This document shows positions 19,954 to 57,108 of a stretch of DNA of 64,000 nt, piece after piece. Below the pieces are notes generated by a model, which was not told the origin of the DNA, ran no database searches, and worked only from the letters and a program-made list of their open reading frames with translations. The stretch is from an uncultured Isosphaeraceae bacterium. GTDB taxonomy: Bacteria; Planctomycetota; Planctomycetia; Isosphaerales; Isosphaeraceae. The stretch's first letter is position 1, and every line of letters starts with the position of its first letter. The position numbers were made by a program, and so were the translations under genes. Where the stretch lies: positions 124,001 to 188,000 of the forward strand of contig CAMFLR010000005.1 in the NCBI GenBank assembly GCA_945957605.1, given 5' to 3'.

Positions 19954-21180
19954 TCATTTGCGGCGAGTGCCGCCGAAGCCAACAGGACGGCCGAGCGACC
20001 CCTGCGGGCAAGGGACGGGCTCAACCGATGGGTCGGCTTTGTGCGTCAGCAGTTCGCTCAGTTGGAACGCGTGATACGGCTGACTCGCTGCGGGCTCGCC
20101 GCTCGTTGAGGCGTTGGCGATCCAGAGCTTGGTGGTGGTCGTCTCGAACAGCACGCTGTGCAGGTTCGACTTCATGGCAACCGGCCTGTCCATCAGGTGC
20201 CGGGCCGACTCAGCGTCGAACTTGCCGTGCCCTTCCTGGGCTCGCTTCACCAGTTCGGTGTAACGGTCACCGGCCGAGAGCAGCACGGCGTCCTTCACGG
20301 CAGTCGGCAACTTCTCGTGCGACTCACCCATGCCCACGGTGTAGAACTTGTTCCACGAGGCTTCCATGCCCACCGCCTTGCCCGAGTTGCCGTCGGCGAT
20401 CACATAGTAGTATTCGCATGTCCGAGGCTTGTCGCGGAAGATGGCAATCGCCTCGTCGAGCGTCTTGCTCTCCTCAAGCGCCATGCGAACGAGCAAGGTC
20501 ATCGGCACGCCATCCCAGTGGCCGATCCCCTTGCCACCCATCTCGCCAATCGAAATCTTCTTGGCGTTCATACCCGTGACCGAACCAATGAAGCCTGCGT
20601 AGCTCACATTCGCGAACGGGATCGCGTCGTTCGGCTCGGCGATGGTCAGCACTGCGTGATCTTGCAGCGTCCAGTCGCAGCCGTAGTCGAGAATCCGCCC
20701 ATGATAGAGCGTGCCGTCCTTCGTGGCCGAGCCGCTCAGCGCGAATCCGCTGCAATGGAACAACTCGGGGAGGAAGTTGGCGACGAGGATCTCGTTGTAG
20801 TCGACGCCCGACCCATCGGCGATTCCCTGCAACTCTTCGTAGTAGCGGGCGGGAACCCACTTCTTCTGGTTTTCGGAAATCGTGGCGACGAGAATCTTGG
20901 GGTTCGGACTAACTTTGAGGCCGGCGGCCAGCTCGACCTTGAACTCCTTCGCCTTCACGTCGAACAGATAACGCACAAGCTTGTTGATATCGTCCTTGAG
21001 CAGGAACCCCTGCTGGTAGCCCATCTCATAAGGGCTGCCCTTGATGTGCAGCACCTTGTAGCCGCCGATCTCCTCGAGAAAGCCCCTGCCGCATCGCGCG
21101 ATGGTGGTCGATTCCGCACGCGCGGGGGCGACGCACACGACGAGAAGCATCATCAAGCATGCGATTGTGCGTTTGTTCAT
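19954..21180 (-). CDS. Exported C45-type peptidase/acyltransferase-like protein
   Basis: 408 residues with a signal peptide (MNKRTIACLMMLLVVCVAPA). The catalytic N-terminal nucleophile region is FHCSGFALSGSATKDGTLYH, where the Cys starts the autoprocessed beta chain of C45 (acyl-CoA:6-aminopenicillanic acid acyltransferase) enzymes, and GRILDYGCDW follows. The upstream part (GSPYEMGYQQGFLL) is the family's alpha-chain motif. Likely an amidase/acyltransferase in the periplasm. Substrate unknown. Confidence 0.85.
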   Translation of the reverse strand: MNKRTIACLMMLLVVCVAPARAESTTIARCGRGFLEEIGGYKVLHIKGSPYEMGYQQGFLLKDDINKLVRYLFDVKAKEFKVELAAGLKVSPNPKILVATISENQKKWVPARYYEELQGIADGSGVDYNEILVANFLPELFHCSGFALSGSATKDGTLYHGRILDYGCDWTLQDHAVLTIAEPNDAIPFANVSYAGFIGSVTGMNAKKISIGEMGGKGIGHWDGVPMTLLVRMALEESKTLDEAIAIFRDKPRTCEYYYVIADGNSGKAVGMEASWNKFYTVGMGESHEKLPTAVKDAVLLSAGDRYTELVKRAQEGHGKFDAESARHLMDRPVAMKSNLHSVLFETTTTKLWIANASTSGEPAASQPYHAFQLSELLTHKADPSVEPVPCPQGSLGRPVGFGGTRRK

Positions 21181-46480: not shown

Positions 46481-47635
46481 GTGGCCTCACACAAGGGAAC
46501 AGGGCTGACCAGCGACCTCAAAATCACCAGCGTCGAGGCGATGTACCTCCGCCTGCCGCAAGTCAAAGAACAGTGCGACAGTGGCCAGGACGCGTTGGTC
46601 GTGAAGATCACAACCGACGCCGGAATTACAGGTTACGGCGAAGTCGATTCCAACCCGATGGGTGCCAAGGGGATCATCGAAGGCCCCTTCTCGCACACCG
46701 CGACGACCGGCCTCGGGCACGTCTTGATCGGCGAAGATCCTCTGCAAACAGAGTATCTCTGGCACAAGATGTATCGGGCGAACATCTATGGCGGCCGCCG
46801 GGGCGTCGCGATCCACGCCATGAGCGGCATCGACCTCGCCCTCTGGGACATCAAAGGTAAAGCGCTCGGCCTTCCGGTCTGGAAGCTGCTGGGCGGTGGT
46901 TTCACGAAATCGCTAAGACCTTACGCCAGCTCGCTTTTCGGAGAAACACCCGCCGAGACCGGTGATCGCGCCCGACGTTTCGTCGATCAAGGCTTCACCG
47001 CCGTCAAATTCGGCTGGGACCCGATGGGTCGCGACGAGGCTACGGATATCGCGCTAGTACGAGAAGCTCGCGCTGGATTGGGAACCCAGCCCGACCTGAT
47101 GATCGACGCCGGCCTCGTTTTCGACGCCAAGACCGCCATCCAGCGCGCCAAGGCGTTCGAGCAATACAACCCGTTCTGGTTCGAAGAACCCCTTCTGCCC
47201 GACGACTACCACGGCTACGCCAAGCTCTCCGCCGCGAGCAGTTTGCGGATTGCAGCCGGCGAGGAAGAGTCGGAGCGGAAGTCGTTCATCGAACTGATGG
47301 ACGTCGGCCAGGTCGACGTGATCCAGGTCGACCTCACGCGCTGCGGCGGTTTCACCGAGGCCATGAAAATCGCCTCACTCGCCGCCGATCGCGGCATTCC
47401 CGTAGTGAACCACGGCTTCACAACGTACCTGAATGTCGCCGCCGCCCTGCACTTCCTCGCGAGCATCCCCAACACGCTCGGCCTGCTCGAATTCGTGGTC
47501 GAGGAGGGTACGACGCTGCGTCACCATATCACCGAGCCAATCCGCGCCGTCGACGGCCGCGTCGCCGTGCCCGATGCGCCGGGGTTGGGTTTGGGGATTG
47601 ATGAGAAGGGGATTGCGAAGTATCGGGTGGGGTGA
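46481..47635 (+). CDS. Enolase-superfamily enzyme (mandelate racemase/muconate lactonizing type)
   Basis: 384 residues from a GTG with AGGAG upstream. The N-domain precedes a TIM barrel with metal ligands in LMIDAGL, FWFEEPLLP and AAGEEESE, and a His base in VVNHGF. A Lys (AVKFGW) lies at the second strand. Such enzymes dehydrate or epimerise acid sugars; the substrate cannot be set. Its 3' end (~265 bp) is duplicated twice downstream as decayed fragments. Confidence 0.9.
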   Translation: MASHKGTGLTSDLKITSVEAMYLRLPQVKEQCDSGQDALVVKITTDAGITGYGEVDSNPMGAKGIIEGPFSHTATTGLGHVLIGEDPLQTEYLWHKMYRANIYGGRRGVAIHAMSGIDLALWDIKGKALGLPVWKLLGGGFTKSLRPYASSLFGETPAETGDRARRFVDQGFTAVKFGWDPMGRDEATDIALVREARAGLGTQPDLMIDAGLVFDAKTAIQRAKAFEQYNPFWFEEPLLPDDYHGYAKLSAASSLRIAAGEEESERKSFIELMDVGQVDVIQVDLTRCGGFTEAMKIASLAADRGIPVVNHGFTTYLNVAAALHFLASIPNTLGLLEFVVEEGTTLRHHITEPIRAVDGRVAVPDAPGLGLGIDEKGIAKYRVG

Positions 47636-47768
47636 GGTTGTGATTGGCCAGTCCCGCCTCTCTGGGGCATGGGGAGAGTCAGATTGACAGAAATCGCCTG
47701 ATCATTTAAATGGTCGCCGATATCAAACTCTTTCTGACAAGCCTCCGTCGCGAGCAGGTCGCCCCCCT

Positions 47769-48965
47769 ATGCGATTTAACGGATTGAATGTCGGCAAGCA
47801 TTTCGCGGTCGTAGCGCTGGCGGCAGCAGATCTATTCTCGCTACCGCAAAGCGCTTCGGCCGCGCCTATGTATACGGCCACCAGAGTTGGCGTAAATAGT
47901 ATCGGTACAATTAACGACTCTGGTACCGCCATTCTGAGGAGCGGCGACACTCAACAGGGCCTCATTTACAACGGCAGCGGACCCGACGCTGGATTGCTCC
48001 AACTCATACCTGGCAATCCCGGTTACGCTTCCATCAACAATTCGGGGCAAATTGCCACAACGGTGACCACCCCGGGATGGCCAAACTTCCAACGGGCTGA
48101 GATTGTTCAAAACGGCCAAGAGACTCCGCTTCCGTTGCCCGCCGGCTATCAAAACAGCATCACAACTGGAATCAACGACGCTGGCGACGTCACGGGGTAT
48201 GCCTACACTTCCAGCGGGTCGTCCAGCGCTTACTACTATCACACCGGGCAAATGACACTCTTTGGCCCCGTTTGGCCGAACGGGACATCTCAAACGCCCA
48301 CGTCGATCAATTCCTCGGGGGCAATCGTCGGCACCGCGTCAAGTTCGGACATGACTGATGCATTTTTATACTCAAATGGGAAGTATCAAGATTTGGGCGG
48401 ATTCGGCGCCCGGCAAGCTTTGCCCACAGCGATTAATGACAAAGGTCAGATCGCCCTTAATCTTATTGGCAAGCAAGTACCGATCGTGTCGGAAACGCCG
48501 GTCCACGCTTATATCGACAATAACGGTCAACTCACAGCGCTTCAGCCACTGGCGGGAGACAATTACACCCGCGTCTTGGCGATGAATAACCAGGGGGTTG
48601 CTGTCGGTTTTTCCTATGCTAAGACTGACGGTCTGCTAACCGACCACGCGGTCGTTTGGCAAGACGGAATCGCCACCGAACTCACTTCGGCAACAGCCAA
48701 GTTGAATGGATTCTCGCTATTCTCCACTGCTTCGATCAATAACCTTGGTCAAATTACCGCTAAGGGTTGGAATGCGGACCGGCAGGAGTTCGGTTCCTTC
48801 ATCCTTACTCCCGACGGTCTATCAGTACCCCCCGACGCGCACACCGTACCCGAACCAAGCACTCTCGCTGCATTCAGCCTCCTTGCCGCAGGCAGTTTGA
48901 CTTACCGGAGGCTGAAATCGAGGAAACAAGCAAAGCGCCGTGTGCGATTCAAAGAATCAGGCTGA
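47769..48965 (+). CDS. HAF-repeat PEP-CTERM protein, copy 1
   Basis: 398 residues. Signal peptide (HFAVVALAAADLFSLPQSASA), then about six HAF-type repeats (INDSGTAILRSGDT, INDAGDVTGYAYTS, INSSGAIVGTASS) and a PEP-CTERM sorting tail VPEPSTLAAFSLLAAGSLTY with a basic end. The tail should direct processing by an exosortase and outer surface display. The last ~130 bp match copy 2 exactly. Confidence 0.9.
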   Translation: MRFNGLNVGKHFAVVALAAADLFSLPQSASAAPMYTATRVGVNSIGTINDSGTAILRSGDTQQGLIYNGSGPDAGLLQLIPGNPGYASINNSGQIATTVTTPGWPNFQRAEIVQNGQETPLPLPAGYQNSITTGINDAGDVTGYAYTSSGSSSAYYYHTGQMTLFGPVWPNGTSQTPTSINSSGAIVGTASSSDMTDAFLYSNGKYQDLGGFGARQALPTAINDKGQIALNLIGKQVPIVSETPVHAYIDNNGQLTALQPLAGDNYTRVLAMNNQGVAVGFSYAKTDGLLTDHAVVWQDGIATELTSATAKLNGFSLFSTASINNLGQITAKGWNADRQEFGSFILTPDGLSVPPDAHTVPEPSTLAAFSLLAAGSLTYRRLKSRKQAKRRVRFKESG

Positions 48966-49083
48966 CGGAGCCGATTTAAGATGCCGCCCTCGCCGCCGAT
49001 CGCGGCATTCCGGTAGTCAATCTCGGCTTCACAACCCACCTGAACGTCGCCGCCGCTCTGCACTTCCTCGCGAGCATCCCCAA
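48831..49083. repeat. 253-bp direct repeat, left copy
   Basis: Identical base for base to 50488-50740 (offset 1657). It spans the end of the HAF gene, the short spacer and the start of the enolase fragment. Outside this block the two units differ clearly. Confidence 0.9.
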
Positions 49084-49246
49084 CACGCTGGGCCTGCTCG
49101 AATTCGTGGTTGAGGAAGGAACGACTCTGCGACACCACATCACCGAGTCGATCCGCGCGGTTGATGGGCGCGTCGCGGTGCCTGATGGTCCGGGGTTGGG
49201 CTTGGGGATTGATGAGAAGGGGATTGCGAAGTATCGGGTGGGGTGA
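48980..49246 (+). pseudogene. Decayed 3' fragment of the enolase-superfamily gene, copy 1
   Basis: An open frame without its own start codon, ending in TGA at 49244-49246, translates to the last ~88 residues of the upstream enolase gene (AALAADRGIPVVNLGFTTHL through GIDEKGIAKYRVG). The base His of VVNHGF is Leu. It has no N-domain or metal ligands, so it cannot be a functional enzyme. Confidence 0.88.
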
Positions 49247-49377
49247 GATCGCAATCAGGCAATCCGCCTGCGAGGGCCACCGGGACAGTCAGATTGACAG
49301 AAATCGTCTGATCATTTATTTGGTCGTCGATATAGGACTTCTTCTGACAAGCCCGCGCCACGGACAGGTCTCCCCCT

Positions 49378-50622
49378 ATGCGATTCAACGGATTGAATGC
49401 CGAAACGCATTACGAGCTCATAGCGCTGGCGGCCGCATGCCTGTTTTCGCTGTCGCCAAGCGCTTCGGCTGCGCCGATGTATACGGCCACCAGGATCGGC
49501 GTAAATGGTATCGGTACAATCAACGACTCGGGTACCGTCACTTTGACCAGCGGCTACTATGTGGAAGGCCTCATTTACAAAAGTAGCGGACCCGACGCCG
49601 GATTGCTTAAACCCATACCTGGCAATCCCGGCAACACCTACCTCAGCAATTCCGGGCAAGTTGCCACAACAGTGACAACGCCCGGATGGCCATCGTTCCA
49701 GCAGGCCGAGATTGTTCAAAACGGCCAAGCGACGGTGCTACCGCTGCCCACCGGTTATCAAAACAGCGTCACAACTGGAATCAACGACGCTGGTGACATC
49801 ACCGGGTATATGTACTCGTCCGCCGGGTATATGAATGCGTTCATCGGGTCGGCAAGCGCCTTTTATTATCACGCCGGGCAGGTGACGCCGATTGGCCCCA
49901 TTTCGCAGTCGATGCTAGATCAGATTCCCACGGCAATCAATTCGTCGGGGGCCATCGTGGGAACCGCAGAATCAACGACGGCGTCCGGTGCCACTGATGC
50001 GTTTTTATACAGTAATGGAACGTATCAAGATTTGGGCAACTTCGGCGCCCGGATCGCTTCGCCCACGGCGATTAACGACAAAGGCCAGATCGCCCTTAAT
50101 CTCCTTGGCACGTACAACGCTAATGATCCGCTGGCAACCGTTCTCTCAACAAACTCCGTCCACGCCTACATCTACAACAATGGGCAACTTACAGCGCTTC
50201 AGCCATTGCCGGGAGACACTTATACCCGGGTCTTAGCGATGAATAATATGGGGACTGCCGTCGGATATTCTTTCGCCAACTCTGACGGCAGGTTTACCGA
50301 CCACGCGGTCGTTTGGCAAAATGGAATCGTGACTGACCTCACGTCGGCAACGGCAGGGTTGAATGGATTCTCGCTGGTCAATGTCGCTTCGATTAACAAC
50401 CTTGGTCAAATTACGGCTAACGCTATGGGCCCGGATCAGGAAATGGATGGTTCCTTCATCCTAACGCCCGCTGGTCTGCCGGTACCGCCCGACGCGCACA
50501 CCGTACCCGAACCAAGCACTCTCGCTGCATTCAGCCTCCTTGCCGCAGGCAGTTTGACTTACCGGAGGCTGAAATCGAGGAAACAAGCAAAGCGCCGTGT
50601 GCGATTCAAAGAATCAGGCTGA
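49378..50622 (+). CDS. HAF-repeat PEP-CTERM protein, copy 2
   Basis: 414 residues, same architecture as copy 1: signal peptide (YELIALAAACLFSLSPSASA), HAF-type repeats (INDAGDITGYMYSS, INSSGAIVGTAEST, INDKGQIALNLLG) and the identical PEP-CTERM tail. The body differs from copy 1 at many positions and has insertions (e.g. around residue 150), while the tail and 3' flank are identical. Likely surface protein anchored by an exosortase system elsewhere in the genome. Confidence 0.9.
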   Translation: MRFNGLNAETHYELIALAAACLFSLSPSASAAPMYTATRIGVNGIGTINDSGTVTLTSGYYVEGLIYKSSGPDAGLLKPIPGNPGNTYLSNSGQVATTVTTPGWPSFQQAEIVQNGQATVLPLPTGYQNSVTTGINDAGDITGYMYSSAGYMNAFIGSASAFYYHAGQVTPIGPISQSMLDQIPTAINSSGAIVGTAESTTASGATDAFLYSNGTYQDLGNFGARIASPTAINDKGQIALNLLGTYNANDPLATVLSTNSVHAYIYNNGQLTALQPLPGDTYTRVLAMNNMGTAVGYSFANSDGRFTDHAVVWQNGIVTDLTSATAGLNGFSLVNVASINNLGQITANAMGPDQEMDGSFILTPAGLPVPPDAHTVPEPSTLAAFSLLAAGSLTYRRLKSRKQAKRRVRFKESG

Positions 50623-50740
50623 CGGAGCCGATTTAAGATGCCGCCCTCGCCGCCGATCGCGGCATTCCGGTAGTCAATCTCGGCTTCACAACCCACCTGA
50701 ACGTCGCCGCCGCTCTGCACTTCCTCGCGAGCATCCCCAA
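50488..50740. repeat. 253-bp direct repeat, right copy
   Basis: Exact match to 48831-49083; the first mismatch after the block is C/T at 49084/50741. Confidence 0.9.
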
Positions 50741-50903
50741 TACGCTGGGCCTGCTCGAATTCGTGGTCGAGGAAGGAACGACCCTGCGACACCACATCAC
50801 CGAGCCAATCCGCGCCGTCGACGGCCGCGTCGCGATTCCCGATGCGCCGGGGCTTGGCTTGGGGATTGATGAGAAGGGGATTGCGAAGTATCGCGTGGGA
50901 TGA
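50637..50903 (+). pseudogene. Decayed 3' fragment of the enolase-superfamily gene, copy 2
   Basis: The same ~88-codon fragment as 48980-49246, with the His-to-Leu change (VVNLGF). Its 3' half (GAGCCAATCCGCGCCGTC at about 50810) matches the intact enolase gene better than it matches fragment 1, showing a mosaic origin. Confidence 0.88.
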
Positions 50904-50960
50904 GGTTGTAAGGTCCAATCCACCCACGCTACGTTCGACGACAACTCATCTGGAGTCGCG

Positions 50961-51578
50961 ATGGGACAGAACCGTCGCTTGTTCAAAATCCAGGATGGGG
51001 TGATCGTCGTCGCGGCGTGCGCGACGGTGTTCGCCTGCTTCCAGGCGATTTACCCGTCGCTCGTCTCGAACTTCTTCCGTCAGCGATGGACCGGGGTACG
51101 GCTGGTTCACTGGTTGATCGATATTTCCGATTCAGCGCACGTGTTGAGTGGCTGCCTGATGTGCGTCAGTTTTGCAGTCGTCCTCTTACGATTTGTTCAG
51201 CCCCGCCCGTCGCTGCGTCGGATTACGGCACAACCTGGATTCGTCGCGTGCTTTGCCGCCTCAATTATGGGCGGAGTGGTGATCCTCTTCGTCGCCGCGC
51301 GAAAGGTCGGTCGACTTTTAGGCGGCTGGAATCTCAATACCAGCTTCTGGGAACTGACAACCCCCGCACTGTCTAGCCTCGATTCGCTGGGCCGTATGAT
51401 CGTGGGGGTGTGGATCATGTTGCGACTCATGCGACGACCCAAGCCTGAATCGGATTGGGTCGAACGCATCGGGCAGGTTGTTGGAGTCCTTTGGATCGTC
51501 CAGTGGCTGCTTGCCCGTGGGATTCAAGTCGTTTCAATGATGAGCAACCGCTCGCTATTCGATGACGGCACCTATTAA
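50961..51578 (+). CDS. Array membrane protein A1
   Basis: 205 residues, about four TM helices. Shares with A2 and A3 an N-terminal helix, LLRFVQPRPSLRRITAQPGF followed by ACFAA, a central TM, and SDWVERIGQVVGVLWIVQWL. The basic loop between TM2 and TM3 is the conserved core. No signal peptide or known domain. First gene of the six-gene array; the next ATG directly follows its stop. Confidence 0.82.
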   Translation: MGQNRRLFKIQDGVIVVAACATVFACFQAIYPSLVSNFFRQRWTGVRLVHWLIDISDSAHVLSGCLMCVSFAVVLLRFVQPRPSLRRITAQPGFVACFAASIMGGVVILFVAARKVGRLLGGWNLNTSFWELTTPALSSLDSLGRMIVGVWIMLRLMRRPKPESDWVERIGQVVGVLWIVQWLLARGIQVVSMMSNRSLFDDGTY

Positions 51579-52190
51579 ATGATGATTAAAAGGCGTCATG
51601 TTCTTGAGTGGATGATTCTACTCGCCGCGAACGCGTTTGCGGTGCTCTGGATACTCACGAGTCTTTCATCGCACGTAGCCTTATACTATCACTTGGACGA
51701 CGGTCACACTGACGAGCTAATCCTGGCTTACCATTGCGAGGCCGCTACCAGGGCCGTTTTGGTTTCTTGGAGTGTGGCCCTCACTGCGCTTGGGTTGATC
51801 CGCTCCGGCGTTCCCTTGCGACGCTTGCTCGCGCGGCCTGGCTATGTTGTCTGTTTTGCCGTGACGCTAGAAGCTTTTGTTTGGCTCGGTTTGATCATTC
51901 TTGGTTTCGGCTTCCGGATCTTCTATCGTTTGCCAAGTTTCTGGGGCGAGGATATTCGCGCACTCACTCTGAGGGAGAGTTCAACGACGGCTTACTTGAT
52001 CATGATCTGGTGGACGTTGCTCGCCTTCTCGCGAAGGTGGCGTCCATCGCGCGGTTGGATCGACCGAGCCGGTAGAATTATCGGGGTGATCTGGATCGTC
52101 AGTATCGTTTTGCATCTCGCCGTCGACTATGGTTTCGACGTCGAGAATGACCATCGTACCATGGCGCGACAACCGGCCCCAAGTCGGTGA
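51579..52190 (+). CDS. Array membrane protein B1
   Basis: 203 residues, about four TMs. The core reads GVPLRRLLARPGYVVCFAV and the last helix GRIIGVIWIVSIVLHL, the same plan as the other array members but more diverged. Starts immediately after the A1 stop (TAAATG). Function unknown. Confidence 0.82.
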   Translation: MMIKRRHVLEWMILLAANAFAVLWILTSLSSHVALYYHLDDGHTDELILAYHCEAATRAVLVSWSVALTALGLIRSGVPLRRLLARPGYVVCFAVTLEAFVWLGLIILGFGFRIFYRLPSFWGEDIRALTLRESSTTAYLIMIWWTLLAFSRRWRPSRGWIDRAGRIIGVIWIVSIVLHLAVDYGFDVENDHRTMARQPAPSR

Positions 52191-52383
52191 ACCACGAGGA
52201 TCAACGATCGCGCGGCAACTATAGCCTTTTCTTCAGGCCGCTCTGTTGCGCGAGCATTCCTCAACTCTTGTCTCACGGGCTTTTGCTGCAAAGCCCGGTA
52301 TGCCGATGCGGCTCATGTCATTGAATCAATAGGTTTGATAAGATTGCTGCGATAAACCACCTGATTCGTCGCCGGAGACTTGC

Positions 52384-52959
52384 ATGGTGAAGCAGAATCG
52401 CAAATTCACGATCCTGGATCTGATGATTTGCGTGGCGTTCGTGGGACTTGGGGCTGCATTGTTCCGCCTGATGAGCCCATACCTTCGCGGTTGGTCTCCC
52501 TTTGCGCGATCGGCCAAGTTCGAAGACCACCTGGTCGATCTTTCAGGTGTTGCGAAACTTGCGAGCGAGGGTTTGTTTTGTGCAAATCTTTGTGTGCTTA
52601 CCCTTCGATTCATTCCCCCGCGTCCCAGCGTCCGGAAACTTGCGAGGCAGCTGGGTTTCGTCGCGTGCTTTGTTGCGGCGATCGCTGTGCTTGCGCCACT
52701 CGTCCGCCTCTTCGCTCAACTGGTTGAATATAAGCTGCTTGGCTTGAAAATTGCCGACCCATCGCACTATTTGACGCCGATCGTCGATGCAGCGGAAATG
52801 GCCGGTGCCGGTGTCATGGCGTCGTGGGGCATTTTGGTGCTGAGGCGGGGAGCGAGAATGAAGGCAGATTGGGTCGAATACATGGCGCGCACACTTGGAG
52901 TCGTCTGGATTGTGCAATGGATTCTCTGGCATGGACTCTATTTCGCCGGAGTTCTGTAA
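52384..52959 (+). CDS. Array membrane protein A2
   Basis: 191 residues starting MVKQNRKFTILDLMICVAFV, a planctomycete-style N-terminus, with GGAG upstream. TLRFIPPRPSVRKLARQLGF then VACFVAA, and ADWVEYMARTLGVVWIVQWI are the A-type signatures. Four to five hydrophobic segments. Confidence 0.85.
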   Translation: MVKQNRKFTILDLMICVAFVGLGAALFRLMSPYLRGWSPFARSAKFEDHLVDLSGVAKLASEGLFCANLCVLTLRFIPPRPSVRKLARQLGFVACFVAAIAVLAPLVRLFAQLVEYKLLGLKIADPSHYLTPIVDAAEMAGAGVMASWGILVLRRGARMKADWVEYMARTLGVVWIVQWILWHGLYFAGVL

Positions 52960-52972
52960 GGTGAAAACGTGC

Positions 52973-53608
52973 ATGAGATTCATCAATACTCTGCGAAATA
53001 CCATAGCCCTGAAGTTCGCGGTCGTATTTGCGTTCGCAACAGTCCTGGCTTGCCTATGGATGCAAAGGGCCATGGCGACGCATCACCCCAAGGGTGTCGT
53101 CTGGCCGACGCAAGCTCTCTGGGCGATCGGATATGGAATGTGGGTCGGAACCACCGTCGCGTTCCCCTATCTGGTTTGTTGGTGTTGCGGGATTGTTGTT
53201 CTGGTCAGGTCGACTCCCAGGTCGCCGATTTCAAGAATCGCCTCACAGCCGGGATTTGCAGCGTGTTTCGCAGTTGCCTCTCTGACTCTGCTATTCTTCT
53301 TCTGCGGACTGTTGCGCGTGGTTGTCAAAGTAGCTGTCGGACGGGCAATGGCCTGGAACCGGTTCACCGTCATTCTCTTTGCGTATCAAATCTCAGATTA
53401 TGCAGGCCAGTTCGTTGCGATCCTCTGGCTCTTATTTCTGCTGGCCCGAATTTGGCGTCCTTCGTCTAGTCCATTGGAAACGCTGGCTCGGATACTTGGC
53501 GTTCTTCTCATTTTCACGTGGTCGCTCGATCGATTAGGCTCCTTCCTAATGTCTGTGGGCGTGGATCTCGTCGTTGAGTCGGACCGGATTCAGAAGGGCG
53601 TGACATGA
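52973..53608 (+). CDS. Array membrane protein B2
   Basis: About 211 residues from the ATG at 52973 (AAGGTG upstream); GTG 52961 is an alternative start. B-type features: FAVVFAFATVLACLWMQRAM, the Cys pair in VCWCCG, SPISRIASQPGFAACFAVAS, and LETLARILGVLLIFTWSL. Its stop overlaps the A3 start by ATGA. Confidence 0.82.
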   Translation: MRFINTLRNTIALKFAVVFAFATVLACLWMQRAMATHHPKGVVWPTQALWAIGYGMWVGTTVAFPYLVCWCCGIVVLVRSTPRSPISRIASQPGFAACFAVASLTLLFFFCGLLRVVVKVAVGRAMAWNRFTVILFAYQISDYAGQFVAILWLLFLLARIWRPSSSPLETLARILGVLLIFTWSLDRLGSFLMSVGVDLVVESDRIQKGVT

Positions 53609-54189
53609 TTAAAAAGCAGCGCAAGTTCATGATTTTGGATCTGATGATCTGCGTCGCTTCTGCCGCTCTCTCGGTCGTCTGGCTTCAGCAAATACTTCCA
53701 GCGCTTCGGTCTGTGTTTCCTTATTCGCGATCGGGCAAATTGAAGGATTACATGCTCGATCTGGCAAATATCACCAACATAATCGGCGGATGCTTGTTCT
53801 GGGCAAGTGTCGGAGTGACGATCATCCGGCTTGTTCCTCCGCGCCCCAGCATACGGCGGCTCGCCAGGCAACCAGGTTTCGTTGCGTGCCTTTCCGTCTC
53901 GATCGCTGGCGTCGCACCACTGGCGGTCAGTGTCGCGCAACAAGTCGGACGCGCTTTGATCGGTTGGACATCATCCGCCGCTGGGACATCGATCCCCTAC
54001 ATGTCAATGACCGTAAATTCATCAGAAATGGCGGGCGCAGGCGTCGCCGCGTTGTGGGGGATCTTGGCGCTGAGGCGGCGTGTTCGAATCAAAGCGGATT
54101 GGGTCGAATATACGGCACGAACGCTCGGGTTCGCCTGGATTGCACACTGGGTACTCTTTAAAGGACTGGCTTTCGTTTGGGCGATTTAA
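53605..54189 (+). CDS. Array membrane protein A3
   Basis: 194 residues starting MIKKQRKFMILDLMICVASA. IIRLVPPRPSIRRLARQPGF then VACLSV and ADWVEYTARTLGFAWIAHWV make it the closest relative of A2. Starts in the B2 stop (ATGA); its TAA overlaps the B3 start (TAATG). Confidence 0.85.
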   Translation: MIKKQRKFMILDLMICVASAALSVVWLQQILPALRSVFPYSRSGKLKDYMLDLANITNIIGGCLFWASVGVTIIRLVPPRPSIRRLARQPGFVACLSVSIAGVAPLAVSVAQQVGRALIGWTSSAAGTSIPYMSMTVNSSEMAGAGVAALWGILALRRRVRIKADWVEYTARTLGFAWIAHWVLFKGLAFVWAI

Positions 54190-54857
54190 TGCAAAACCGC
54201 GACGTGCTAAAAGGAACTCAGCTAATTATGAGCAAGCTAAAATTTGTAGTTGTGTTCGTTTTTGCAACCGCCCTTGCCTACATATGGATGCGAGGCACGC
54301 TAGCGACTTTTTACCCCAAAGGAAGCTTCTGGCCTGTACGATTTCTTCAGGCAGTTAGCGAGGGGACTTCGATAGGCGCCTTCGTATTATACCCCTTTCA
54401 GATTTGTTGGAGTTGCGGGGTAGTTGTTTTATTTCTTTCCCCGCCGAAGTCACGACTATCGACACTCTGCACACAGCCGGGATTTTCGGCGTGTCTCGCG
54501 GTTGCTTTTCTGACACTACTCTTTATTGGTTGCAGTTTGATTCGGTTGATTGTGAGACCATTATTAGGATGGCCGATGATCTGGAATCGGCCGATGGCGC
54601 ACGAAGCATTTGGAGTCGCGTCCCAATTTTCAGGCTACGCAAGCCAATTGGTTCTGGTCATCTGGGGTCTCTTCTTGCTAACTCGAACGTGGCGGCCTGC
54701 GTCTGACCCGTTGGAAAAACTGGCCCGCATCCTTGGTGCACTGCTGATTCTCACTTGGTCGCTCGCCTGGCTTGGCGGGCTGGCTTCATCTGTGGATTGG
54801 GATCTTGAGTATATGGCTCAACAAGAGGCGATTCGCATTCGGACGAACGCGCGATGA
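54189..54857 (+). CDS. Array membrane protein B3
   Basis: 222 residues from the ATG at 54189; a second ATG at 54228, with AAGGA 12 nt upstream, is possible. FVVVFVFATALAYIWMRGTL, CWSCGVVVLF, LSTLCTQPGFSACLAVAFLT and LEKLARILGALLILTWSL match B2. The tail is charged. Last gene of the array, followed by a terminator. Confidence 0.82.
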   Translation: MQNRDVLKGTQLIMSKLKFVVVFVFATALAYIWMRGTLATFYPKGSFWPVRFLQAVSEGTSIGAFVLYPFQICWSCGVVVLFLSPPKSRLSTLCTQPGFSACLAVAFLTLLFIGCSLIRLIVRPLLGWPMIWNRPMAHEAFGVASQFSGYASQLVLVIWGLFLLTRTWRPASDPLEKLARILGALLILTWSLAWLGGLASSVDWDLEYMAQQEAIRIRTNAR

Positions 54858-54871
54858 GTACGAAAAAAATC

Positions 54872-54919
54872 GACTCTCCGCGATCCCCCAATTGGCACAC
54901 GGGAAGATCGCGGAGAGTC
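54872..54919. terminator. Bidirectional intrinsic terminator
   Basis: GACTCTCCGCGATC pairs perfectly with GATCGCGGAGAGTC (14 bp) around a 20-nt loop. A run of seven A precedes it and TTTG follows, so it works in both directions, ending the array and the convergent HTTM gene. Confidence 0.88.
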
Positions 54920-54948
54920 TTTGTACGAACGGTCTACAATCAAAAGCT

Positions 54949-55965
54949 TCAGGCCGAAGCTGCGGGCAAGTTCACCGTTTCCGACGTCGCCACTGAACCT
55001 ATTGGCTGACGCGCCGGGAGGCGGAACGTCATTTTACTCTTCGCCCAGCTCGACAATCCTGCCAGCCAGCCGAGCGGGTTGAACCTCTGCGTCAGTGTTT
55101 CCCACTCACCTGAGGTCAGGAAGGTGAGATACATCGCCACCGAGAGCTCGCCGAACACGGGGATGTTCACCAGGAACATGATGCCGAAGTGTAGCGAAAT
55201 GCCCAGTAGCATCACGAGCGGTCGCGCGGCTTTGAACCAGAGGAGGAACGCGAGAGCGAATTCGATCGCCAGGCCTGAGTATGTTGCGATGTTGATCAGC
55301 AGGGGATATCCAGCCAGGAAGCTGAAATCCCACCGGCCTACCTCGCGATTGCACAGTACAAAGTGAATCGCCGTGCCGGTGATCCAGTTGGATCCGGTTG
55401 TTTTCCAGATCGCCGTCGTAAGATACAGGATCGCGATCTGAATCTGGATCAGCCGCTGCGCCCAGGGGGCAATGAGCGGATCGGCTTCCGTTCCGCCGCG
55501 TCGTTTCCGGGCTCGCCGGGCGTCGAGCGAATAGGCCGCGCCGCAAGGGGCGAGCATCAGGTAGAACGCGTTGCACATCAGCAAAACATCGGCGCCGCTC
55601 GCGTTGGCGATGTTGCGCTGATGAATCGAAAGCATCAACACGTAAAAAATGACGCTCATGATGCGCGTGTGCCAGCCGAGAGTCAGTCCTACGGCCGACG
55701 CGACTGTGCACCAGAGAACTACGCGAACGGAAACGGGATCGCGGAGGTAGTAGAGGATCGAGTGGCGAAGCGGGCCGCCAAGTTCGTGAGCCTCACCACG
55801 CTGAATGACGCCGAGGTCGGTTAGCCAGTAGTCGGTGTCGATGAACATCATCGCCACGTTGAAGATGGCGATCAGGCCGAACAGGATGCGGAACGCTCCC
55901 AGCGGCTTGGCGGAAACAGGCGCGAACCAGAAGCGATTCCAGGCGCGAATCGGGTTGAAGCTCAT
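54949..55965 (-). CDS. HTTM-domain membrane protein (vitamin K carboxylase-like)
   Basis: 338 residues with about six to seven TM helices. ILFGLIAIFNVAMMFIDTDY, SIHQRNIANASGADVLLMCN and LQIQIAILYLTTAIWKTTG-type helices are the HTTM signature, the membrane module of vitamin-K-dependent gamma-carboxylases and related proteins. A carboxylase activity is unproven. Starts inside the stop of the upstream partner (ATGA). Confidence 0.88.
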   Translation of the reverse strand: MSFNPIRAWNRFWFAPVSAKPLGAFRILFGLIAIFNVAMMFIDTDYWLTDLGVIQRGEAHELGGPLRHSILYYLRDPVSVRVVLWCTVASAVGLTLGWHTRIMSVIFYVLMLSIHQRNIANASGADVLLMCNAFYLMLAPCGAAYSLDARRARKRRGGTEADPLIAPWAQRLIQIQIAILYLTTAIWKTTGSNWITGTAIHFVLCNREVGRWDFSFLAGYPLLINIATYSGLAIEFALAFLLWFKAARPLVMLLGISLHFGIMFLVNIPVFGELSVAMYLTFLTSGEWETLTQRFNPLGWLAGLSSWAKSKMTFRLPARQPIGSVATSETVNLPAASA

Positions 55966-56504
55966 GGCCGGGCCTCCTCCCAGTTGGGAAACAGGTATTC
56001 CTTGATCGGAACGGTGCGCGTCAGCGCCATGGGATCGGGAACGGTCCCCGGCGGCGGGGTATCGCGGACGACGAACCGAAGCTCCACTTCAACGGGGAAC
56101 GCTTCGGGCGGGATTTTTAGCTCGCGAATAACGTGTCGCGCTCCAACTTCACGAAGCACCGCGAATTCATCGTTCGCAAAGTACGACGTGAACTTGGAAT
56201 GTCGAACGCGAGGCACGCCTTGCCAGATCGAGAAGTCGGACATCTTGGGGAAGACGAAGTTGTGCATCATGCCATTCTTATCAATGGCGAGCGCCTCGAG
56301 CGTGAGCGTGTTCTGCATCGGGTTCGGCGCGAACATCGACCAGTTCTGCCAGAGGCCGAGCGGGAACATGTAGTTCACCGCGAAGCCAAGCGCCCGGTCG
56401 CGGATGACGCACGTCGGCATGTTGTAAACCGTCAGCGCAGCGAGATGCACGACGATGAACGCCGAGATCAAGACCCGTTTTAATCCCCAGATTCGTCGAG
56501 CCAA
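55962..56504 (-). CDS. Membrane-anchored partner of the HTTM protein
   Basis: About 180 residues starting at TTG 56504 with AGGAGG five bases upstream, which decides the start; the extra 64 codons upstream lack sense. One N-terminal TM (VLISAFIVVHLAALTVYNM) and an outside domain with FPLGLWQNWSMFAPNPMQNT and PRVRHSKFTSYFANDE. The WSMFAPNP block is typical of proteins paired with HTTM genes. Role inferred to be a partner or substrate. Confidence 0.82.
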   Translation of the reverse strand: MARRIWGLKRVLISAFIVVHLAALTVYNMPTCVIRDRALGFAVNYMFPLGLWQNWSMFAPNPMQNTLTLEALAIDKNGMMHNFVFPKMSDFSIWQGVPRVRHSKFTSYFANDEFAVLREVGARHVIRELKIPPEAFPVEVELRFVVRDTPPPGTVPDPMALTRTVPIKEYLFPNWEEARP

Positions 56505-56685
56505 TGCGCCCTCCTTCCCCTCAATCCTTGATGGGGTGCTTCGCGAAGGGGCTAGACCTGAATCGTTGGAGGAAAGCGCGAGTGGTAGAGGGCCTGCCCC
56601 GGGACGACCGCGTCGGTCGGGACCGGCCGGAACTTTAGAAGATGGGGCCAAAACCGTCAAGGCGAGCGCAGCAGAAGAACTCGCC

Positions 56686-57108
56686 TCACTCGCCAATAAT
56701 CTTGATCAACACCCGCTTATCTCGTTTCCCGTCGAACTCGCCGTAAAAAATCTGCTCCCACGGACCGAAATCGAGCCGGCCATTTGTGATCGCCACCACC
56801 ACCTCACGCCCCATGATTGTTCGCTTAAGATGGGCATCGGCATTATCTTCGCCGGTCCGGTTGTGATGGTAGACGTCGGGAGACGCATTAAAAGGTGCCA
56901 ATTGTTCCAGCCAAACGCCGAAGTCGTGGTGTAGTCCACGCTCGTCATCATTGATGAAAACGCTCGACGTGATGTGCATGCTATTCACCAAGCACAGCCC
57001 CTCCTTCACCCCTGATTCACGAATTGCATCACTCACCTGTGGCGTGATGTTACGAAACCCGGTTGCCTGCGGCATGTGCATTTTTAAGTAAACAGTGTGG
57101 GCTTTCAT
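56686..57108 (-). CDS. yjbQ: YjbQ-family protein (UPF0047)
   Basis: About 140 residues. [56 protein letters not shown] and [20 protein letters not shown] are the UPF0047 signature; E. coli YjbQ shows weak thiamine-phosphate-synthase activity. The conserved His residues could bind metal. The ATG at 57108 gives the usual length; an extension to 57249 is not family-like. Confidence 0.93.

Follow-up and report, generated by a model that had tools for sequence, protein, structure and literature searches.

What kind of locus is a run of six consecutive genes for small membrane proteins in an uncultured Isosphaeraceae bacterium? In the stretch of 64,000 nucleotides that we analysed (hereafter the window), an initial annotation had read these genes as two types, A and B, alternating in strict order and encoding a heteromeric membrane unit amplified by duplication. 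We therefore considered whether A and B are distinct subunits, how far their order is kept elsewhere and what the proteins might do. Planctomycete genomes are to a large extent annotated as hypothetical (PMC5352709), and the present analysis makes one unnamed family of membrane proteins, with up to 26 copies per genome, annotatable by its motifs, predicted topology and profile.

Layout of the array

The block between 50961 and 54857 indeed consists of six co-directional open reading frames (ORFs) of 191-222 aa, followed by a hairpin:

A1, 50961..51578, + strand: ORF, 205-aa membrane protein of the family; family HMM E 5e-45; A clade 96/91
B1, 51579..52190, + strand: ORF, 203-aa family member; family HMM E 2e-38; type B not established (p-AU 0.39, B clade)
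A2, 52384..52959, + strand: ORF, 191-aa family member; sister of A3, 99/95
B2, 52973..53608, + strand: ORF, 211 aa, ATG at 52973; sister of B3, 100/100; lacks the N-terminal RxFxxxD
A3, 53605..54189, + strand: ORF, family member of 194 aa, overlapping B2 at ATGA; model with five helices, pLDDT 88, pTM 0.82
B3, 54189..54857, + strand: 222 aa from ATG 54189, or 209 aa from ATG 54228; five-helix model (209-aa form), pLDDT 86
Hairpin, 54872..54922, no strand assigned: between the array and a convergent HTTM gene; fold -36.1 kcal/mol, z -6.5

The genes had been described as abutting or overlapping. This is true for A1/B1 (TAAATG), B2/A3 (ATGA) and A3/B3 (TAATG), but B1 and A2 are separated by ~190 bp, so that two transcription units (operons) are possible; A2 and B2 are spaced by 13 bp. 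A consensus scan revealed no sigma-70-like promoter for the array, the sigma-70 consensus saying little for planctomycetes. Where a strong terminator had been proposed, at the end of the block, there is a strong hairpin 3' of B3; with an A-run at the 5' side and TTT at the 3' side, it is possibly a bidirectional terminator. A simple terminator scan did not list this hairpin, the loop limit of the scan being 8. The hairpin is common to the array and the convergent HTTM-domain gene (PF05090); at 54949-56696 this gene lies beside another with a weak DUF5819 match.

The region upstream of the array (46481-50921) is itself a tandem duplication with a unit of ~1.6 kb. The MR/MLE enolase gene at 46481-47635 has its 3' end (~300 nt) repeated at 48965-49264 and 50622-50921 with 85-86% identity, and these enolase tails alternate with two PEP-CTERM-like genes (47769-48965 and 49378-50622), the second of which matches DUF3466. 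A1 starts ~40 bp downstream of the last tail.

A and B belong to a single family

The family profile matches all six window proteins at full length (E 8e-33 to 5e-45), although all six also contributed to it. Support independent of the profile comes from a search of the window's own genome with A3 as a single sequence, which recovers the other five window proteins, namely B1 (E 2e-8), B2 (3e-5), B3 (9e-9), A1 and A2, along with many further loci. The homology of A and B rules out the reading of two distinct subunit families in constant order: they are paralogues of one family, many members of which are singletons. The motifs noted initially, QPGFxxC in the loop and RxxGxxxI in the last helix, reappeared when the six window proteins were checked; the Gly of the QPG loop is found in all of them and PG in five (A2 has LG). 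The Cys pair ascribed to B2 and B3 is likewise real, residing in a Cys-rich TM2 (CWCC and CWSC). The N-terminal RxFxxxD motif is present in A1, A2 and A3 and absent from B1, B2 and B3. Since it is typical rather than universal (D12 is found in 107 of ~128 members), it was not taken as a requirement for membership.

A carefully built tree of 40 members unites A1, A2 and A3 (96/91), within which A2 groups with A3 (99/95), and B2 groups with B3 (100/100), while the six window proteins come together only moderately (93/74). B1 is unplaced in this tree (p-AU 0.39 for the B clade), and its identity is 21-23% to B2/B3 and 26% to A1 or A3. Consequently, of the A-B-A-B-A-B order, A-?-A-B-A-B is firm, but B1, being no nearer to B2/B3, is not demonstrably a B. 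For three labels of each type, strict alternation alone has a chance probability of 2/20. The solid part of the alternation claim is the duplication of the A2B2/A3B3 block. A2 and A3 are 48% identical (dN 0.39, dS 1.37) and B2 and B3 are 50% identical (dN 0.39, dS 1.24), dS being near saturation by NG86 in both cases; this equal divergence fits one duplication of a two-gene A-B block. The origin of A2-B2 and A3-B3 by such a duplication is well supported.

Distribution of the family

The profile, built from 28 members, places 26 copies in the 8.8-Mb genome of the window, at least one of them broken. One candidate (L021), which had entered an early profile through overfitting, was dropped. Copies are found in 35 of the 45 genomes of Isosphaeraceae, the taxonomic family of the window, ranging from 0 to 26 per genome with the window's genome the highest. 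Among named records, matching loci occur in Paludisphaera soli, Aquisphaera insulae, Singulisphaera sp. GP187 and MAGs labelled Isosphaeraceae or unclassified planctomycete, in keeping with this assignment of the taxonomic family. Ten of the 45 genomes, nearly complete ones included, show no copy, and any role of the family must therefore be dispensable. Outside Isosphaeraceae, a phylum sample yielded no match at 1e-5 in any of 293 genomes (11 candidates scored per genome). A genome-collection scan with A3 alone as the query gave no match. A deeper sample of the class produced two marginal partial matches outside Isosphaeraceae, of which one was weak on re-search and the other was not recovered. 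The weak one, from another family of the class, is a partial match in the RTEQRWIDRL region within a longer ORF (L158; G371 C180, ~20465-20734; E ~0.002 on re-search) and is possibly a remote relative. Altogether, the family is largely confined to Isosphaeraceae.

The initial annotation knew of no named family for these proteins. In agreement with this, members scanned against Pfam-A, NCBIfam, PADLOC and PDB sequences had no credible match; there were only isolated sub-threshold matches, to a different family each time. Searches of open-licence papers, by words rather than by sequence, found no description of the family. Thus, as far as the searched libraries and papers go, the five-helix family appears to be undescribed. 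What is new here is a lineage-specific family and not a mechanism, the lineage-specific expansion of small membrane proteins being an already known kind of thing.

Pairs, singletons and neighbouring genes

A tree of 128 members comprises 64 singletons, 26 pairs, two triplets and the six genes of the window, and some of the members are in homogeneous triplets or recent twin pairs. The initial annotation had proposed to look for the alternating order in other planctomycetes. In five species of genus g12 an ordered non-identical pair has been inherited, its first genes forming one clade (97) and its second genes another (96), but for the window's own A-B pair no clear orthologue was found in any other genome sampled, including the one congener among them. 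Another, divergent 'second-gene' type is seen repeatedly after canonical members, in several genera, but its branches are long. At one locus (L061, 6354-7580; G003 C236), two family members are fused in one frame, the second half lacking TM1. At two others (L016, 7525-8223, and L124, 4961-6176; G000 and G028), a stop or a change of frame divides a copy into two ORFs, and stops break several copies of the family; such split or broken copies are signs of birth-and-death evolution.

Neighbouring genes were compared on a smaller set of loci. Besides widespread kinds of genes, the sole recurrent neighbourhood is an operon found beside the pairs of g12 and of genome G022. Conserved at L055, L056, L057, L070 and L064, it encodes a ketoacyl synthase, an ACP-like protein, a lipid-A-type acyltransferase and a membrane protein with a Y_phosphatase2-like C-terminus. 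A functional link to this lipid operon looked promising at six loci. However, the Y_phosphatase2-like gene is present, mostly in single copy, in 44 of the 45 Isosphaeraceae genomes, whereas adjacency of the listed five-helix members to it is limited to g12 genomes and G022. Since the gene is near-universal and the linkage local, we rejected the functional link. The recurring neighbour families included none that looked toxin-like or secretion-related, and no conserved neighbour gene, partner or ligand pointing to signalling was found.

Predicted topology and conservation

The proteins had been assigned about four transmembrane helices, but the AlphaFold2 models of A3 and B3, the two window proteins modelled (from 32 sequences), show five long helices. 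In A3 (pLDDT 88.3, pTM 0.82) these span residues 10-37, 46-76, 90-119, 132-156 and 166-193; the model of B3 (209-aa form) has pLDDT 86.3 and pTM 0.81. Neither model was matched confidently by a PDB fold: Foldseek gave a best E of 0.9 for both models, and the best VIA-align Z for A3 was 7.7, which is within the range common among helical bundles.

When ~128 sequences were mapped on A3, the mean net charge per residue was +0.24 at the N-terminus, +0.34 in loop 2-3, +0.15 in loop 4-5 and +0.02 in each of loops 1-2 and 3-4. Together with the positive-inside rule, this charge distribution implies an N-in/C-out topology, with loops 2-3 and 4-5 predicted to be cytoplasmic. The two faces differ sharply in conservation. 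The cytoplasmic loops, which carry the conserved basic motifs PRPxxRRLxRQPG and GRWRPExxWIDRxGR, contain 1.66 and 1.79 bits of information versus 0.83 and 0.75 bits for the external ones. Similarly, the standard deviation of the loop-span length, a measure that covers part of the flanking helices, is 0.5 and 1.6 residues for the cytoplasmic loops versus 9.1 and 9.8 for the external loops. Roughly 80% or more of the 128 diverse members retain the best motif residues. For most pairs dN/dS is ~0.2-0.5, and the family is thus under mild purifying selection.

What might the family do?

Based on these results, it is our tentative reading (probability of about 0.4) that the block is a species-specific tandem expansion of an Isosphaeraceae family of ~200-aa membrane proteins, constant inside and variable outside, that serve as a sensor or docking module. 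The copy number of 0-26 per genome goes along with duplication in tandem, broken copies and mild purifying selection, a pattern of birth and death. The constant inner face could dock to one common partner, either a cytoplasmic protein or an anionic lipid surface, whereas the variable outer face could meet differing ligands, which would amount to the role of a sensor or something receptor-like. Paralogues that lie side by side may associate, the degenerate copy (B) perhaps serving the canonical one (A) as a modified partner. The patchy distribution, the birth and death of copies, their fast divergence under only mild constraint and the contrast between the two faces all suggest a sensor or docking function, which we consider most likely, albeit with low confidence. 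Against a receptor, external loops vary in many membrane proteins that are no receptors, and basic inner loops are what the positive-inside rule predicts for any membrane protein. If the pattern does reflect recognition, Isosphaeraceae would carry a lineage-specific receptor-like repertoire. An elaborate form of this idea, in which species-specific tandem blocks encode two-subunit receptors (a canonical and a degenerate subunit, constant inside and with diversified outer loops) recognising ligands, phage, neighbours or kin, strikes us as quite improbable.

How do other explanations fare? An obligate A-B heteromer, that is, two subunits of one channel, transporter or sensor that were amplified together, would agree with the A2B2/A3B3 block duplication, the ordered pairs of g12, the fused gene and the canonical-first, degenerate-second order at several other loci. 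In line with such an order, R6 is kept in 27 of 31 first copies versus 19 of 32 later ones, although this difference (Fisher p 0.022, uncorrected) is one of six tests and ignores relatedness. Yet A and B are paralogues, the window's pair is in no other sampled genome and B1 is not demonstrably a B. Moreover, half of the 128 members are single genes, which leaves an obligate heteromer without support at the level of the family, and further members form homogeneous twins or triplets. Thus, of the proposed amplified heteromeric unit, the duplication of the pair stands, as the matching dN and dS indicate, but the obligate heteromer as a general rule does not. We regard the latter explanation as rather doubtful, even if an obligate heteromer is possible for the window's pair and for g12. 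Less likely still are structural or lipid-binding proteins, whose conserved basic inner face would bind anionic head groups and shape or organise the membrane. The members are small all-helical proteins without soluble domains, with conserved basic inner loops and Trp at the interface, and a pair does lie beside the ketoacyl synthase/ACP-like/lipid-A-type acyltransferase operon in g12 and one g13 genome. That adjacency, however, reflects local linkage, and a membrane-organising role has to contend with the ten genomes that show no member.

Tandem arrays of small diverse membrane proteins with a patchy distribution and birth and death might also be expected of immunity proteins against bacteriocins or polymorphic toxins, held as a diversified stock. 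But neither the recurring neighbours nor the PADLOC scan offered anything in favour of immunity, and it is the inner loops that are the best conserved parts; we find this explanation hardly probable. The variable copy number, broken copies and fast divergence could even be taken as marks of largely neutral lineage-specific paralogues with little selected function. Considering the prevailing dN/dS values and the retention of the best motif residues across such diverse members, we judge neutrality to be very improbable.

Comparison with known systems

Type IV pilins have a prepilin peptidase site G-F with Glu at +5, and the type IV pilin/DUF1559 N-terminal motif of planctomycetes resembles the RxFTLxD-MILVA of our family in spacing. 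However, Gly precedes Phe in only 10 of ~128 members, Asp replaces Glu5 and four further helices follow. The A proteins of the window themselves have no G before F and have D in the place of Glu +5. The missing G at -1 and the five helices thus rule out a pilin relationship. Catalytic Cys pairs characterise thiol membrane proteins of the DsbB/VKOR type, and the Cys pairs in TM2 of B2/B3, as well as the Cys following QPG in many members, are reminiscent of them. Nonetheless, within the window Cys pairs are found only in B2/B3, and about one-third of members lack the Cys that follows QPG. As the Cys pairs are not among the conserved columns of the family, a thiol oxidoreductase is ruled out. Expansions of paralogues are on record for Planctomycetes, including young ECF sigma-factor paralogues and the expanded families of Gemmataceae (PMC8567305). 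The five-helix family shares with them lineage-specific growth in paralogues but, in contrast to them, has no known domain and is almost wholly confined to Isosphaeraceae.
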